From: Bacteroidota bacterium
GTDB taxonomy: Bacteria; Bacteroidota; Bacteroidia; Bacteroidales; JAGONC01
Assembly: GCA_026391695.1 (NCBI GenBank)
Contig: JAPLDP010000078.1
Location: 1-64,000, forward strand
DNA length: 64,000 bases
Reading direction: 5' to 3'
Position 1 is the first letter of the stretch, and each line of letters starts with the position of its first letter. The position numbers were made by a program, and so were the translations under genes. The notes under the pieces are model-generated. The model was not told where the DNA came from. It ran no database searches and worked only from the letters and a program-made list of their open reading frames with translations. Below, in pieces: positions 49,823 to 56,544 of the stretch.

Positions 49823-49830
49823 TATCTTTG
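49823..49830 (+). promoter_or_regulatory. Candidate -7 box of the icmF-buk unit
   Basis: TATCTTTG fits TAnnTTTG, 21 bases before the ATG at 49852. It overlaps an in-frame TTG at 49828, which argues against that TTG as start codon. Confidence 0.5.
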
Positions 49831-49851
49831 CAACAAAGAATACCCCATTAC

Positions 49852-52800
49852 ATGGTAAATTCAGAGCCCTATAAACCACACAATCACATCCGGATTGTAA
49901 CAGCGACATCCTTATTTGACGGCCACGATGCAGCCATCAATATCATGCGGCGCCTACTTCAGGCGACAGGCGCCGAAGTCATCCATCTCGGACATGACCG
50001 ATCCGTAGCCGAAATTGTTGAATGTGCCATCCAGGAAGATGTCCAGTCCATCGCTGTTACATGTTATCAGGGCGGGCACATGGAATTCTTCAAATACATG
50101 TATGACCTGTTAAAGGAAAAAAGTGCCGGACATATCAAAATAGTTGGTGGCGGCGGCGGAACAATACTGCCTGATGAAGCAAAGGAACTGCATGAATATG
50201 GTATTGCCGGCATATATTCCCCCGATGATGGCCGCAAGATGGGTTTGCAGGGCATGATCAATGATGTGATGGAGAAATCCGACTTTCCCACAGGTAAAAA
50301 CATAAAAGTGAAAGTCGGGGATATTACATACAAAGACTATAGAACTATTGCGACAGTTATTTCGGCTGTGGAGAATTTCCCTGAGACGGTGAAAAAGTTC
50401 CTGGCCGATCTGCAAAGGATGAGCAAAGACCGGAAGGTGCCGGTACTGGGTATCACCGGTACAGGAGGCTCGGGCAAATCATCATTGATCGATGAAATTG
50501 TCCGCCGTTTCCTGATTGATTTCCCTGATAAATACCTGGCCATCATTTCAGTAGATCCTTCCAAACGCAAGACTGGAGGGGCGTTACTTGGCGACCGCAT
50601 ACGCATGAACGCCATCAGCAATCCCCGTGTATACATGCGCTCTCTGGCCACACGCCAGTCGAACCTGGCCATGTCGAAATATGTGAAGGATGCCGTCAGC
50701 ATCGCACAGGCTGCCGGCTTCGACCTCATAATTCTGGAAACATCCGGCATAGGTCAGTCCGACACCGAAATAATTGATCACAGCGATGTATCCATGTATG
50801 TGATGACACCTGAATATGGCGCGGCCATTCAGCTCGAGAAAATCGACATGCTGGACTTTGCCGATATCATTGCACTTAACAAGTTTGATAAACGTGGCTC
50901 ACTTGATGCTTTGCGCGATGTAAAGAAACAATATGCCCGTAACCATAAATTATGGGATGAAGATCCCGACAACATCCCGGTATATGGTACTATCGCCTCA
51001 CAGTTCAATGACACGGGTGTCAATAATTTCTACCATGCCCTTATCCACATCATCGAGGAAAAGACAGGCATGAAATTCGGTACATCATTCAGGAAAATGG
51101 TTGAACTGTCGGAGAAAATACACATCATTCCGCCCCACCGGACAAGATATCTTTCGGAAATCGCCGACACAGTCAGAAATTATAACAAGTGGACCGAGAG
51201 CCAGGCTGAGGTCGCACAACGCCTGTATGGCCTGCAGAAATCGATCCAGACAATAAAGGAAGATTTGGGTGACGAACTGCTCATCGACAGGCTGGAACAT
51301 GTCTACAAAAAACTGGAGATGAAACTCGATGCTCATAGCCGGCAAATACTGAAGAGCTGGGCAAAGAAAAAAGAGTCGTACGCGAAAGGTGAGTACGTTT
51401 ATAAGGTCCGTGACAAAGAGATGAAAGTCAAAACCTTCTCTGAGTCTCTGTCGCACCTGAAGATACCTAAAGTAACTCTTCCTCATTACGAAGCCTGGGG
51501 TGACGTGTTAAAATGGAATCTCCGTGAAAATGTACCTGGTGAATTTCCTTATGCTGCCGGTGTTTTTCCCTTCAAGCGTGAGGAAGAGGACCCGACACGG
51601 ATGTTTGCCGGTGAAGGCGGACCGGAAAGGACAAATATACGCTTCCATTACCTCTCGTACGGTATGCCGGCAGTCAGACTATCGACAGCATTCGATTCTG
51701 TCACCTTGTACGGCCATGACCCCCACCAGCGACCCGATATCTTCGGCAAGGTCGGTAATTCGGGAGTGTCCATCTCCTGCCTCGACGATGCTAAAAAGCT
51801 TTACTCCGGTTTTAACCTGTGCGACCCAAAGACGTCTGTATCGATGACCATCAACGGGCCTGCCCCAACCATGGTGGGCTACTTCATGAATTCCTCTATC
51901 GACCAGCAATGCGAACTCTATATCAGGGAAAATGGACTTACTGACGAGGTTGAGAAAAAGATAGCATTACTTTACAAGAACAAAGGAACAAAGAGACCGC
52001 AATATCAGGGCACACTGCCCCGGGGACATAACGGGATGGGTCTTTTATTGCTCGGCATCACCGGCGATCAGGTTCTTCCAAAAGAGGTGTATGAACGGAT
52101 TAAGACCGACACACTGTGCACCGTGCGTGGCACTGTCCAGGCCGATATTCTCAAGGAAGACCAGGCACAGAATACGTGTATATACTCCACCGACTTTTCG
52201 CTGAAGCTTATGGGCGATATTCAGGAATATTTCATCAGAAATAATGTCCGTAACTTTTATTCAGTCTCCATTTCCGGGTATCACATTGCTGAGGCCGGCG
52301 CCAATCCCATCACACAACTGGCGCTGACGCTCTCCAACGGCTTTACCTACGTCGAGTATTATGCATCGCGTGGTATGGATATCAACAAGTTTGCGCCAAA
52401 CCTGTCATTCTTCTTCTCCAATGGTATTGACCCGGAATATTCCGTATTAGGCCGTGTGGCACGGCTTATATGGTCAAAGGCCATGAAGATTAAGTACAAC
52501 GCCAATGCACGATCGCAGATGCTGAAGTACCATATACAAACTTCGGGACGGTCATTGCATGCACAGGAGATCGATTTCAATGACATCCGTACTACTCTCC
52601 AGGCATTATATGCCGTGTATGATAACTGTAACTCTCTTCACACCAATGCCTATGACGAAGCCATCACAACACCCACCGAGGAATCGGTGCGCCGTGCCAT
52701 GGCTATTCAGCTCATCATCAATCATGAATTAGGTCTCGCCAAGAACCAAAATCCATTGCAGGGATCATTCATCATCGAAGAGTTGACGGATCTTGTGGAA

Positions 52801-53226
52801 CAAGCTGTCCTGCTTGAATTTGACCGTATTACCGAAAGAGGCGGCGTACTTGGTGCTATGGAAACAATGTACCAGCGTAATAAAATTCAGGAAGAGTCGC
52901 TCTATTACGAGCACATGAAACACACCGGTAAACTGCCCATCATGGGAGTGAACACCTTCCTGTCGTCGAAAGGTTCGCCCACGACCATACCTGGCGAAGT
53001 GATCAGGGCTACGGTGAGAGAGAAAAAATATCAGCTGTCGATGCTCAAAGATCTTCATAAAACATACGAAAGCGAAGCAAAACAAGCCATCGCCGATCTG
53101 AAAAATGCATCACTGCACAATCAGAATATCTTTGACAGACTCATGGAAACATCAAAGTATTGTTCCATAGGACAGATAACGGATGCACTTTTTGAGGTGG
53201 GAGGCCAGTACCGGAGGAATATGTGA
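49852..53226 (+). CDS. icmF: Fused isobutyryl-CoA mutase (IcmF), B12-dependent
   Basis: 1124 aa from the ATG at 49852. Domains in order: cobalamin-binding domain (residues about 10-145, with [14 protein letters not shown] and [13 protein letters not shown]); MeaB-like G-protein chaperone (about 195-430, P-loop GTGGSGKS at 203-210, [17 protein letters not shown]); mutase TIM barrel (about 560-1124, [31 protein letters not shown]). This order is the IcmF arrangement, which interconverts isobutyryl-CoA and butyryl-CoA, rather than methylmalonyl-CoA mutase. Some IcmF relatives also take isovaleryl/pivalyl-CoA. It is followed 34 bases later by butyrate kinase, which supports the butyryl/isobutyryl role. 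Confidence 0.93.
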
Positions 53227-54337: not shown

Positions 54338-54372
54338 AACGGATGCCATCTTTACGAAAGATGGCATCCGTT
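54338..54372 (+). terminator. Strong hairpin after butyrate kinase
   Basis: A 16-bp perfect stem (54338-54353 with 54357-54372, containing ggatgccatc) with an acg loop starts at the base after the buk stop. It lacks a long T-run, so it may be a processing or weak termination signal. Confidence 0.55.
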
Positions 54373-54543: not shown

Positions 54544-56544
54544 ATGGAAATTCAAATCGACAAACGGGTAAACCGGATCATTTTACATTGCTCTGGTCGT
54601 TTAGATGCTGCCAGTGCTCCGGATTTCGAGAAAAAAATTATGACCATTATCAAGGATCAACAGGTGACTACATTCCTTAATTTCTCCGGTGTGGACTATA
54701 TGTCCAGTGCCGGAGTACGATCACTCATCTTTCTCTTTAAGGAAGCAAAAGACATTAAAAAGAACGATGATACGAAAATGGTACCACTGATCCGGCTTAT
54801 AAATCCTTCACCGGCTGTACAGAATATCCTTGATATGATTGGCTTGAAGGAATCGTTGCTGTTGGGAGATATTGGTACAGTGAAATCTGCCTCAATTGTG
54901 ACAGAGGGGGTTTCGTACGAGGATTTGCTTAAGAAGGTACGTACATTTTTCCCTGCCCCAATATCCGATCCGATTCACGATGCATACTTTGTGCAATCTG
55001 TTGCCAAAGGATTAAATGCTATTGATAATCTGAAAGGCAGGCAGCCTTTTCTTGGGACACGAACCAAACTGGAATATGATTCGGTAAGGTCAAGAAAGCT
55101 GTCTGAAAAAATGTCCTCACTTGAAGAAACAATCACCGATATCGCAGATTACATGCAGGGCAATTTCATCTGGGGTCATCCTCACACACAGGAAAATGTC
55201 ATTCCCCCACCTACTATAGCTTCTATCATAGGTCAGCTATTTTGCTCAATCTACAATCCGAATGTCATATGGGATGAATATAGTTACAAGCTGAGCCAGG
55301 CTGAAGTTGAGGTGGCCAGCATATGTGAAGCCCTGGTTGGTTATGATCAGAAGACATCTGTAGGTGTTTTTACCTTCGGGGGTACAGGAACCATTTTATA
55401 CGGTGTGAAATTGGGCATTGAAAAAGCTTCTCCTGGTGTTTTCAGGATAGGCATGCATGAAAAATTGCATATCGTAGCTTCTGAAGCAGCTCATTATGCT
55501 AAGCTCAGCGTACTCGGATGGCTTGGACTCGGCTTGGAGAACCTTGTCACAGTTCCGACCGATAGTGACAACTCTATGGATCTCGTTTCATTGGAAATGA
55601 CTTTGCGTAAAATGCTGGAGAAGGGAGAGAAAATTGCATGCATTATCGCCACAATGGGGACCACAGATGCTTTCGGGATAGATAACCTTGAATACGTCGT
55701 CCACTTGCGCGATAAACTGGTGGACGAATATAAACTTCCATACCGGCCTCATGTTCATGCAGATGCAGTGATCGGCTGGGCATGGGCAGTATTTAATGAT
55801 TATGACTTCGAAGACAATCCCATGGGATTTCCAATGAGAACACTCCGGTCCTTATGGGATACCCATATCAATTTACGTGCTCTTCACCTTGCCGATTCCA
55901 TCGGACTGGATTTTCATAAATCCGGATACGGACCCTATGTGTCAAGCATGTTCATGTGCAAGAACAGTAAGGATCTTGACCTGATCACAAGGGATAACTC
56001 GATTATGCCATATCTGTTTCAATTTGGCAACTATCACCCCGGTGTATTCACTTTAGAGGCATCCCGTTCAGCAGGTTCTGTACTGTCTGCCTTGGCAAAC
56101 CTTAAACTACTAGGTAAGGAAGGATACCGGACTATTATCGGTCACATCGTGACCATGGCTGAAACATTGCGCGCCAGCATTGAAAAAACATCCTATGCTT
56201 GCTTGGTGAATAATTACAACTATGGACCGGTCACCCTTTTCCGGCTTTATCCTGATGGTGTCGATGCAGTGACTGCCTTTCTCGAAGAGACCACGGATCC
56301 CGGCAAAGTGGAGCAGTTGAAAAAAAATGATGATTACAACCGTAGGATTTTTAAAGTTCTTTACCGGCAGATGGAGGAGGGAAATGGCGTTGCCCTGTCA
56401 TACACTGATCGGTCGCGTCTAACTTCATACGGGGAACCAGTATTGGCTTTGAAATCATTCGTCATGTCCCCATTTATTGATGAGTCGGCCATGGATTTTT
56501 TAATGACCTGTCTTGAGAATGCCAGGAAGGAATGCAAATTTTAA
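54544..56544 (+). CDS. STAS domain fused to PLP-dependent group II decarboxylase
   Basis: 666 aa. Residues 1-110 form a STAS (anti-sigma factor antagonist) domain, including the phosphorylation-type motif DYMSSAGVRS with Ser54/Ser55. Residues about 145-660 match group II pyridoxal-phosphate decarboxylases: WGHPHTQENVIPPPT at the entry, the PLP-ring His405 and Asp407 in VHADAVIGW, and the Schiff-base Lys459 in GLDFHKSGYGP. Members decarboxylate glutamate, aspartate, diaminobutyrate or aromatic amino acids; the substrate here is unknown. The fused STAS domain suggests control by a serine kinase/phosphatase partner or targeting. It has its own upstream spacer of about 170 bases and converges on an HMG-CoA-lyase-like gene. 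Confidence 0.85.
   Translation: MEIQIDKRVNRIILHCSGRLDAASAPDFEKKIMTIIKDQQVTTFLNFSGVDYMSSAGVRSLIFLFKEAKDIKKNDDTKMVPLIRLINPSPAVQNILDMIGLKESLLLGDIGTVKSASIVTEGVSYEDLLKKVRTFFPAPISDPIHDAYFVQSVAKGLNAIDNLKGRQPFLGTRTKLEYDSVRSRKLSEKMSSLEETITDIADYMQGNFIWGHPHTQENVIPPPTIASIIGQLFCSIYNPNVIWDEYSYKLSQAEVEVASICEALVGYDQKTSVGVFTFGGTGTILYGVKLGIEKASPGVFRIGMHEKLHIVASEAAHYAKLSVLGWLGLGLENLVTVPTDSDNSMDLVSLEMTLRKMLEKGEKIACIIATMGTTDAFGIDNLEYVVHLRDKLVDEYKLPYRPHVHADAVIGWAWAVFNDYDFEDNPMGFPMRTLRSLWDTHINLRALHLADSIGLDFHKSGYGPYVSSMFMCKNSKDLDLITRDNSIMPYLFQFGNYHPGVFTLEASRSAGSVLSALANLKLLGKEGYRTIIGHIVTMAETLRASIEKTSYACLVNNYNYGPVTLFRLYPDGVDAVTAFLEETTDPGKVEQLKKNDDYNRRIFKVLYRQMEEGNGVALSYTDRSRLTSYGEPVLALKSFVMSPFIDESAMDFLMTCLENARKECKF

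Follow-up and report, generated by a model that had tools for sequence, protein, structure and literature searches.

Domain architecture of the fusion protein

Why should a STAS domain be joined to a PLP-dependent decarboxylase in a single chain, and does it control the enzyme to which it is attached? The question is raised by an open reading frame at positions 54544 to 56544 of the window, the whole 64,000-nucleotide stretch of DNA analyzed here. The frame starts with ATG, encodes 666 amino acids (aa) and is free of internal stops; it and all features within it lie on the plus strand. A sequence-only reading had described a complete N-terminal STAS domain with a serine motif, followed by a full group II decarboxylase with His405, Asp407 and Lys459, and both halves were confirmed, with all three of these residues in place. 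Pfam profile PF01740 (STAS) matched residues 4 to 105 (E = 7e-12; 45.5 bits versus a cut-off of 22.6), and PF00282 (Pyridoxal_deC) matched residues 185 to 564 (E = 1.1e-14; 54.4 bits versus a cut-off of 27). The STAS domain, anti-anti-sigma-like by Pfam, profile and fold, spans residues 1 to 110 (54544 to 54873; residues 1 to 108 were also given), and the group II decarboxylase domain, assigned by PF00282 and fold match, residues 121 to 666 (54904 to 56541). They are separated by a flexible linker (residues 111 to 120; 54874 to 54903) of which neither length nor sequence is conserved in the alignment of fusions. The whole-protein AlphaFold2 (AF2) model, built from 44 relatives, had a mean pLDDT of 84.9, and its sole stretch below 50 was linker residues 112 to 120.

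The first 110 residues matched STAS by both profile and fold. Among solved structures, only anti-anti-sigma factors matched the fused-STAS profile by sequence at E <0.001, namely, TM1442, 4HYL (an antagonist from Haliangium), SpoIIAA, RsbV and RsfB; 4HYL has the identical YMSSAG motif. The NCBIfam model TIGR00377 scored 52.7 bits, just short of its cut-off of 53.45. Likewise, TM1442 headed the fold ranking (Z 16.2; 1.7 Å over 100 residues), followed by RsbV from the RsbV/RsbW complex (Z 15.3), with the STAS domains of SLC26, MlaB and stressosomes ranking below these two. Folded alone, the STAS part gave an AF2 pLDDT of 90 and the STAS order of elements, with Ser55 opening helix 2 (residues 55 to 73 in the whole-protein model). 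Judged by profile and predicted fold, the STAS half is thus of the RsbV/SpoIIAA anti-anti-sigma type.

In SpoIIAA and RsbV, the serine that accepts the phosphate is well established. In the motif M53-S54-S55-A56-G57 (codons 54700 to 54714), the second residue of the pair Ser54-Ser55 (54703 to 54708) aligns with the acceptor serine of RsbV, SpoIIAA and TM1442 at the start of helix 2, and Ser55 is therefore the predicted phospho-acceptor position. The SSAG motif was intact, with the acceptor serine kept, in 9 of the 12 aligned fusions; the exceptions were L031 (T-E-A-G), L038 (E-N-D-G) and L039 (D-A-A-D).

Active site and substrate of the enzyme half

The PF00282 score, the PLP-binding Lys, Asp and His residues and the fold all place the enzyme half among the group II PLP decarboxylases. 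The nearest solved folds were those of an S. thermophilus decarboxylase (Z 32.9 over 366 residues) and of the tyrosine decarboxylase of Enterococcus faecalis (Z 32.0 over 440 residues), the latter match spanning residues 121 to 666. Asp407 (55762 to 55764), within HADAVIGW, is presumably the aspartate that contacts the PLP pyridine nitrogen, as in group II decarboxylases generally, and Lys459 (55918 to 55920), within DFHKSGYGPY, the Schiff-base lysine. Two further residues, beyond those of the sequence-only reading, could be assigned by alignment with LbTDC, the tyrosine decarboxylase of L. brevis: His317 (55492 to 55494), the putative PLP-stacking histidine equivalent to H241 (PMC4904194), and Tyr465 (55936 to 55938), an active-site loop tyrosine six residues past the PLP lysine and equivalent to Y398 in the alignment of DFHKSGYGPY. 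His317, Asp407 and Lys459 were invariant in 44 aligned sequences.

The enzyme half probably removes CO2 from an amino acid. Attempts to name the substrate by similarity to NCBIfam or PDB entries failed, as the NCBIfam equivalog cut-offs were missed by far for tyrosine decarboxylase (65.2 bits versus 905.3), PanP (80.9 versus 606.1) and DABA decarboxylase (61.1 versus 900), and no substrate is assignable on this basis.

Distribution and evolutionary history

The fusion was found in 13 genomes including that of the window, the other 12 proteins being 52 to 86% identical. This recurrence of the same fused form, with an identical junction in 12 other genomes, rules out an assembly error or chance junction. 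The closest relative (86% identity, full length) belongs to another genus of the family of the window genome. Ten more fusions, 52 to 63% identical over their full length, came from a GTDB scan of one genome per species, with record titles naming Cloacimonadota, Planctomycetota, Proteobacteria, Syntrophaceae, Smithellaceae, Deltaproteobacteria, Riflebacteria, Obscuribacterales and Myxococcales, and one additional fusion came from the family of the Syntrophaceae genome. By record title, the carriers span about eight phyla; all are metagenome-assembled genomes, so any one taxon label could be mistaken, yet the junction is recurrent. PF01740 exceeded its cut-off in eight of nine further fusions scanned, the exception being L039, in which the STAS region is present and has decayed below Pfam detection. 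Carriers are sparsely distributed, with 5 among 51 genomes in the family to which the Syntrophaceae genome belongs and 2 among 393 in the order of the window genome. Among plasmid records, the best relatives were 30 to 37% identical and matched the enzyme part only.

The other 69 loci of the GTDB scan encode decarboxylases without a STAS domain, mostly of about 545 to 560 residues and 48 to 58% identical; at four of these (L065, L072, L088 and L105), the gene had been missed by a simple ORF caller. No STAS gene was found near the STAS-less decarboxylases by blastp or with a hidden Markov model of the fused STAS domain, so the fusion does not appear to be a shortcut of a STAS-decarboxylase operon. 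A more distant decarboxylase clade (L025:1-4695 and L028) is about 33% identical; judged by eye, its genes are flanked on both sides by apparent membrane transporters, and a second decarboxylase gene, of 620 aa, is found nearby. These loci look like an acid-resistance or amine-producing cassette.

In a maximum-likelihood tree of the enzyme domain, the 12 fused sequences and the STAS-less L040 formed one clade (bootstrap 100; SH-aLRT 99) apart from about 63 stand-alone relatives. L040 grouped with L031 and L038 (100/100), and a strict clade of fusions excluding L040 was rejected (AU test, P = 0.004), which favors loss of the STAS domain in L040. One gain and one loss of the STAS domain is therefore the simplest history, and the spread over phyla implies inter-phylum transfer or much loss. 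Pairwise distances of the STAS and enzyme domains were strongly correlated (r = 0.95; none of 5,000 permutations as high), and the two halves have thus evolved together. Mean identity among the fusions was 37% for the STAS domain and 62% for the enzyme, with dN/dS values (window versus L029) of 0.31 and 0.10, respectively. Together with the distance correlation, these values indicate that the STAS domain is held by purifying selection, more loosely than the enzyme.

The lineage of L031, L038 and L040 departs from the other sequences in both halves. Of 44 aligned enzymes, 41 have Tyr at position 465 and these three alone have Ile; in the same lineage, Glu or Asn takes the place of the STAS acceptor, or the entire domain is gone. 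In LbTDC, kcat/Km for tyrosine is 216 with Tyr398 in place but drops to 3.4 with Ala and to 13.5 with Phe at this position (PMC4904194). Loss of the switch thus coincides with a change in the active site, as expected if altered enzyme chemistry makes the switch dispensable; as a single event on one branch, the coincidence is suggestive but does not amount to a correlation. In L031:8001-10016, alignment positions 54 to 57 lie in the sequence LTEAG, where Glu replaces the acceptor serine and may be a natural phosphomimetic; the L031 genome has strong RsbW-type matches despite this Glu.

Gene surroundings and candidate partners

Upstream of the fusion, one gene encodes a B12-dependent acyl-CoA mutase joined to its GTPase, and another an acetate/butyrate-kinase-type protein; downstream, on the opposite strand, are HMG-CoA-lyase-like, AMP-ligase, acyl-CoA dehydrogenase and carboxylase genes. 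The mutase gene (49828 to 53226, with a TTG start in the ORF list) encodes an IcmF-like protein of 1,132 aa in which B12-binding, MeaB-type GTPase and mutase domains are combined. A perfect inverted repeat with 16-bp arms and a 3-nucleotide loop (54338 to 54372, not assigned to a strand) sits just after the acetate/butyrate-kinase-type gene, separating it from the fusion, and suggests that the fusion is a separate transcription unit. A terminator scan made no call at 54338 to 54372, as the repeat has no T-run. The CoA-metabolism genes were absent around the 86% homologue and are therefore not evidence for the substrate. Indeed, the carriers shared no conserved gene neighborhood except between near-identical species pairs, and as no window neighbors were kept in other carriers, the fusion gene is regarded as a lone unit.

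The sequence-only reading had proposed looking for co-occurring RsbW-type kinases or PP2C phosphatases. Every one of the 12 carriers did have RsbW- and SpoIIE-type families, but no gene for a kinase or phosphatase was seen adjoining the fusion in the 12 fusion loci, several of which are short contigs, or in the window. Since no neighboring gene is conserved, a kinase and phosphatase would have to act in trans. The two families are also common in control genomes (12 of 14 and 5 of 14, respectively), and their co-occurrence with the fusion is therefore weak and not diagnostic.

Candidate partners are encoded in the genome of the window itself, which has three RsbW-type proteins, one of them paired with an RsbV-like protein, and a response-regulator-SpoIIE phosphatase. 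The RsbW-type proteins map to L132:2705-3127, L133:2300-2794 and the HATPase part of L134:2280-3779, and the SpoIIE-type phosphatase to L132:8391-9572. It has four STAS domains, including that of the fusion; the other three are the RsbV-like protein beside the RsbW-like kinase, a domain in a 418-residue protein and one in a 772-residue frame. The 418-aa protein (L132:11651-12907, contig C87) carries its STAS domain at the N terminus, and its gene lies between ABC substrate-binding and ABC permease genes, just after that for the response-regulator-SpoIIE phosphatase; it is possibly part of a partner-switch-linked transporter. One RsbW-type protein is an unusual kinase-type fusion of 499 aa (L134:2280-3779, contig C90), with an HATPase_c_2 domain at residues 12 to 138 and a weak GNAT acetyltransferase match at residues 212 to 281.

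Possible functions of the STAS domain

The best explanation, to which we give an even chance, is that the decarboxylase is controlled in cis by the tethered, phospho-switchable RsbV-like STAS domain. In this scheme, an RsbW-type kinase from another locus would bind to the STAS domain in its unphosphorylated state and phosphorylate Ser55, and a SpoIIE/PP2C-type phosphatase would reverse this modification; upon kinase binding or phosphorylation, the attached enzyme would change in activity, location or dimer/oligomer state. Phosphorylation of Ser55, the kinase partner and the effect on the enzyme are all inferred steps. Cis control is favored by the recurrence of the fusion in 13 genomes, the single fused clade, the joint evolution of the two halves, the selection on the STAS domain and its RsbV type, the retention of Ser55 in 9 of 12 fusions, the paired changes in the L031, L038 and L040 lineage, the candidate partners in the window genome and precedents for such control in trans. 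Against it stand the lack of an adjoining kinase or phosphatase gene, the wide occurrence of RsbW and SpoIIE and the absence of a STAS domain from most relatives of the enzyme. As 3 of 12 fusions have no acceptor serine, phosphorylation is not essential to every member.

These three members, in which the domain is retained without its serine, could also point to a phosphorylation-independent assembly or docking module that holds the enzyme in an oligomer or at another complex, a role played by STAS domains in stressosomes, MlaFEB and SLC26 transporters. STAS folds are often interaction modules, and those of MlaB, SLC26 and stressosomes are among the fold matches. However, the sequence-profile matches were confined to the phosphorylatable anti-anti-sigma class, and 9 of 12 fusions, from different phyla, retain the acceptor serine in a domain that averages 37% identity, so we regard docking as a less probable function.

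Information might instead flow in the reverse direction, with the PLP domain serving as a metabolite sensor whose bound amino acid or product sets capture of an RsbW-type anti-sigma kinase by the STAS domain; the fusion would then signal the metabolic state to a sigma factor or another regulator. The RsbV-like STAS domain is compatible with this, as are a gene that stands alone without conserved pathway neighbors, as a regulator might, and the joint change of the acceptor and an active-site-loop residue in one lineage. The PLP residues, however, are all invariant, the enzyme is under tighter constraint than the STAS domain (dN/dS 0.10 versus 0.31), as fits a working enzyme, and the stand-alone relatives lack STAS, all of which makes such a sensor unlikely. 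More speculative still is a PLP-enzyme class with a cis partner-switch domain in which substrate or product gates capture of the RsbW-type kinase and phosphorylation feeds back on the enzyme; if true, metabolism would provide direct input to a partner switch, whether that of a sigma factor or another. Least probable is a passive or relic fusion, in which a drifting STAS domain gives stability or nothing: the domain does evolve faster than the enzyme, is decayed in L039 and lost in L040, but its dN/dS against L029, its retention in 13 genomes over deep divergence and its mostly conserved acceptor motif argue against drift.

STAS and PLP decarboxylase domains are each well known; their combination is not described in the literature searched. 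Searches for papers on STAS joined to pyridoxal enzymes, covering few subscription journals, returned nothing relevant, in agreement with the earlier remark that no enzyme of this type is well described. Most known partner switches act on sigma factors, and a few act on diguanylate cyclases that are controlled by a separate STAS protein. Cis control of the decarboxylase, if true, would extend serine-phosphorylation partner switching to the direct control of metabolism. The natural variants (Ser intact, Glu or Asn as the acceptor, STAS lost) and the stand-alone homologues offer a ready comparison set.

Comparison with known systems

RsbV, SpoIIAA and TM1442 resemble the STAS half in fold, sequence profile and acceptor serine position. 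However, they are single-domain proteins of about 110 aa switched by RsbW/SpoIIAB kinases, whereas here the domain is joined to a 545-residue enzyme and, unlike in those systems, the gene adjoins no kinase gene. In function, the proposed switch resembles systems in which an enzyme responds to whether a STAS or STAS-like protein is phosphorylated. In HsbA/HsbD of Pseudomonas aeruginosa and BgrV/BgrR of Sinorhizobium meliloti, the phospho-state of the STAS protein controls the enzyme in trans, and in SiaC/SiaD, phosphorylation of Thr68 of the STAS-like (DUF1987) SiaC stops binding and activation (PMC5085249, PMC8457831). Targets of the HsbD, BgrR and SiaD type are diguanylate cyclases controlled in trans, in contrast to the cis control of a PLP enzyme proposed here.

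The enzyme half shares its fold over residues 121 to 666 (Z about 32) with LbTDC (5HSJ), EfTDC (7CWZ), the S. thermophilus decarboxylase (4RJ0), PanP and DABA decarboxylase, which also have equivalents of His317, Asp407, Lys459 and Tyr465. These known enzymes are about 19 to 23% identical to the fusion in structural alignment and have no STAS domain. The stand-alone decarboxylases (L041 to L108) of Poribacteria, Nitrospira, Planctomycetota, Acidobacteria and Rhodothermales are 48 to 52% identical, share the active-site residues and are the evident sister family of the enzyme half; they, too, are without STAS. SulP/SLC26 transporters likewise have a STAS domain covalently joined to a different functional protein, but there a C-terminal STAS domain of another subfamily is attached to a membrane transporter, whereas the domain described here is N-terminal.
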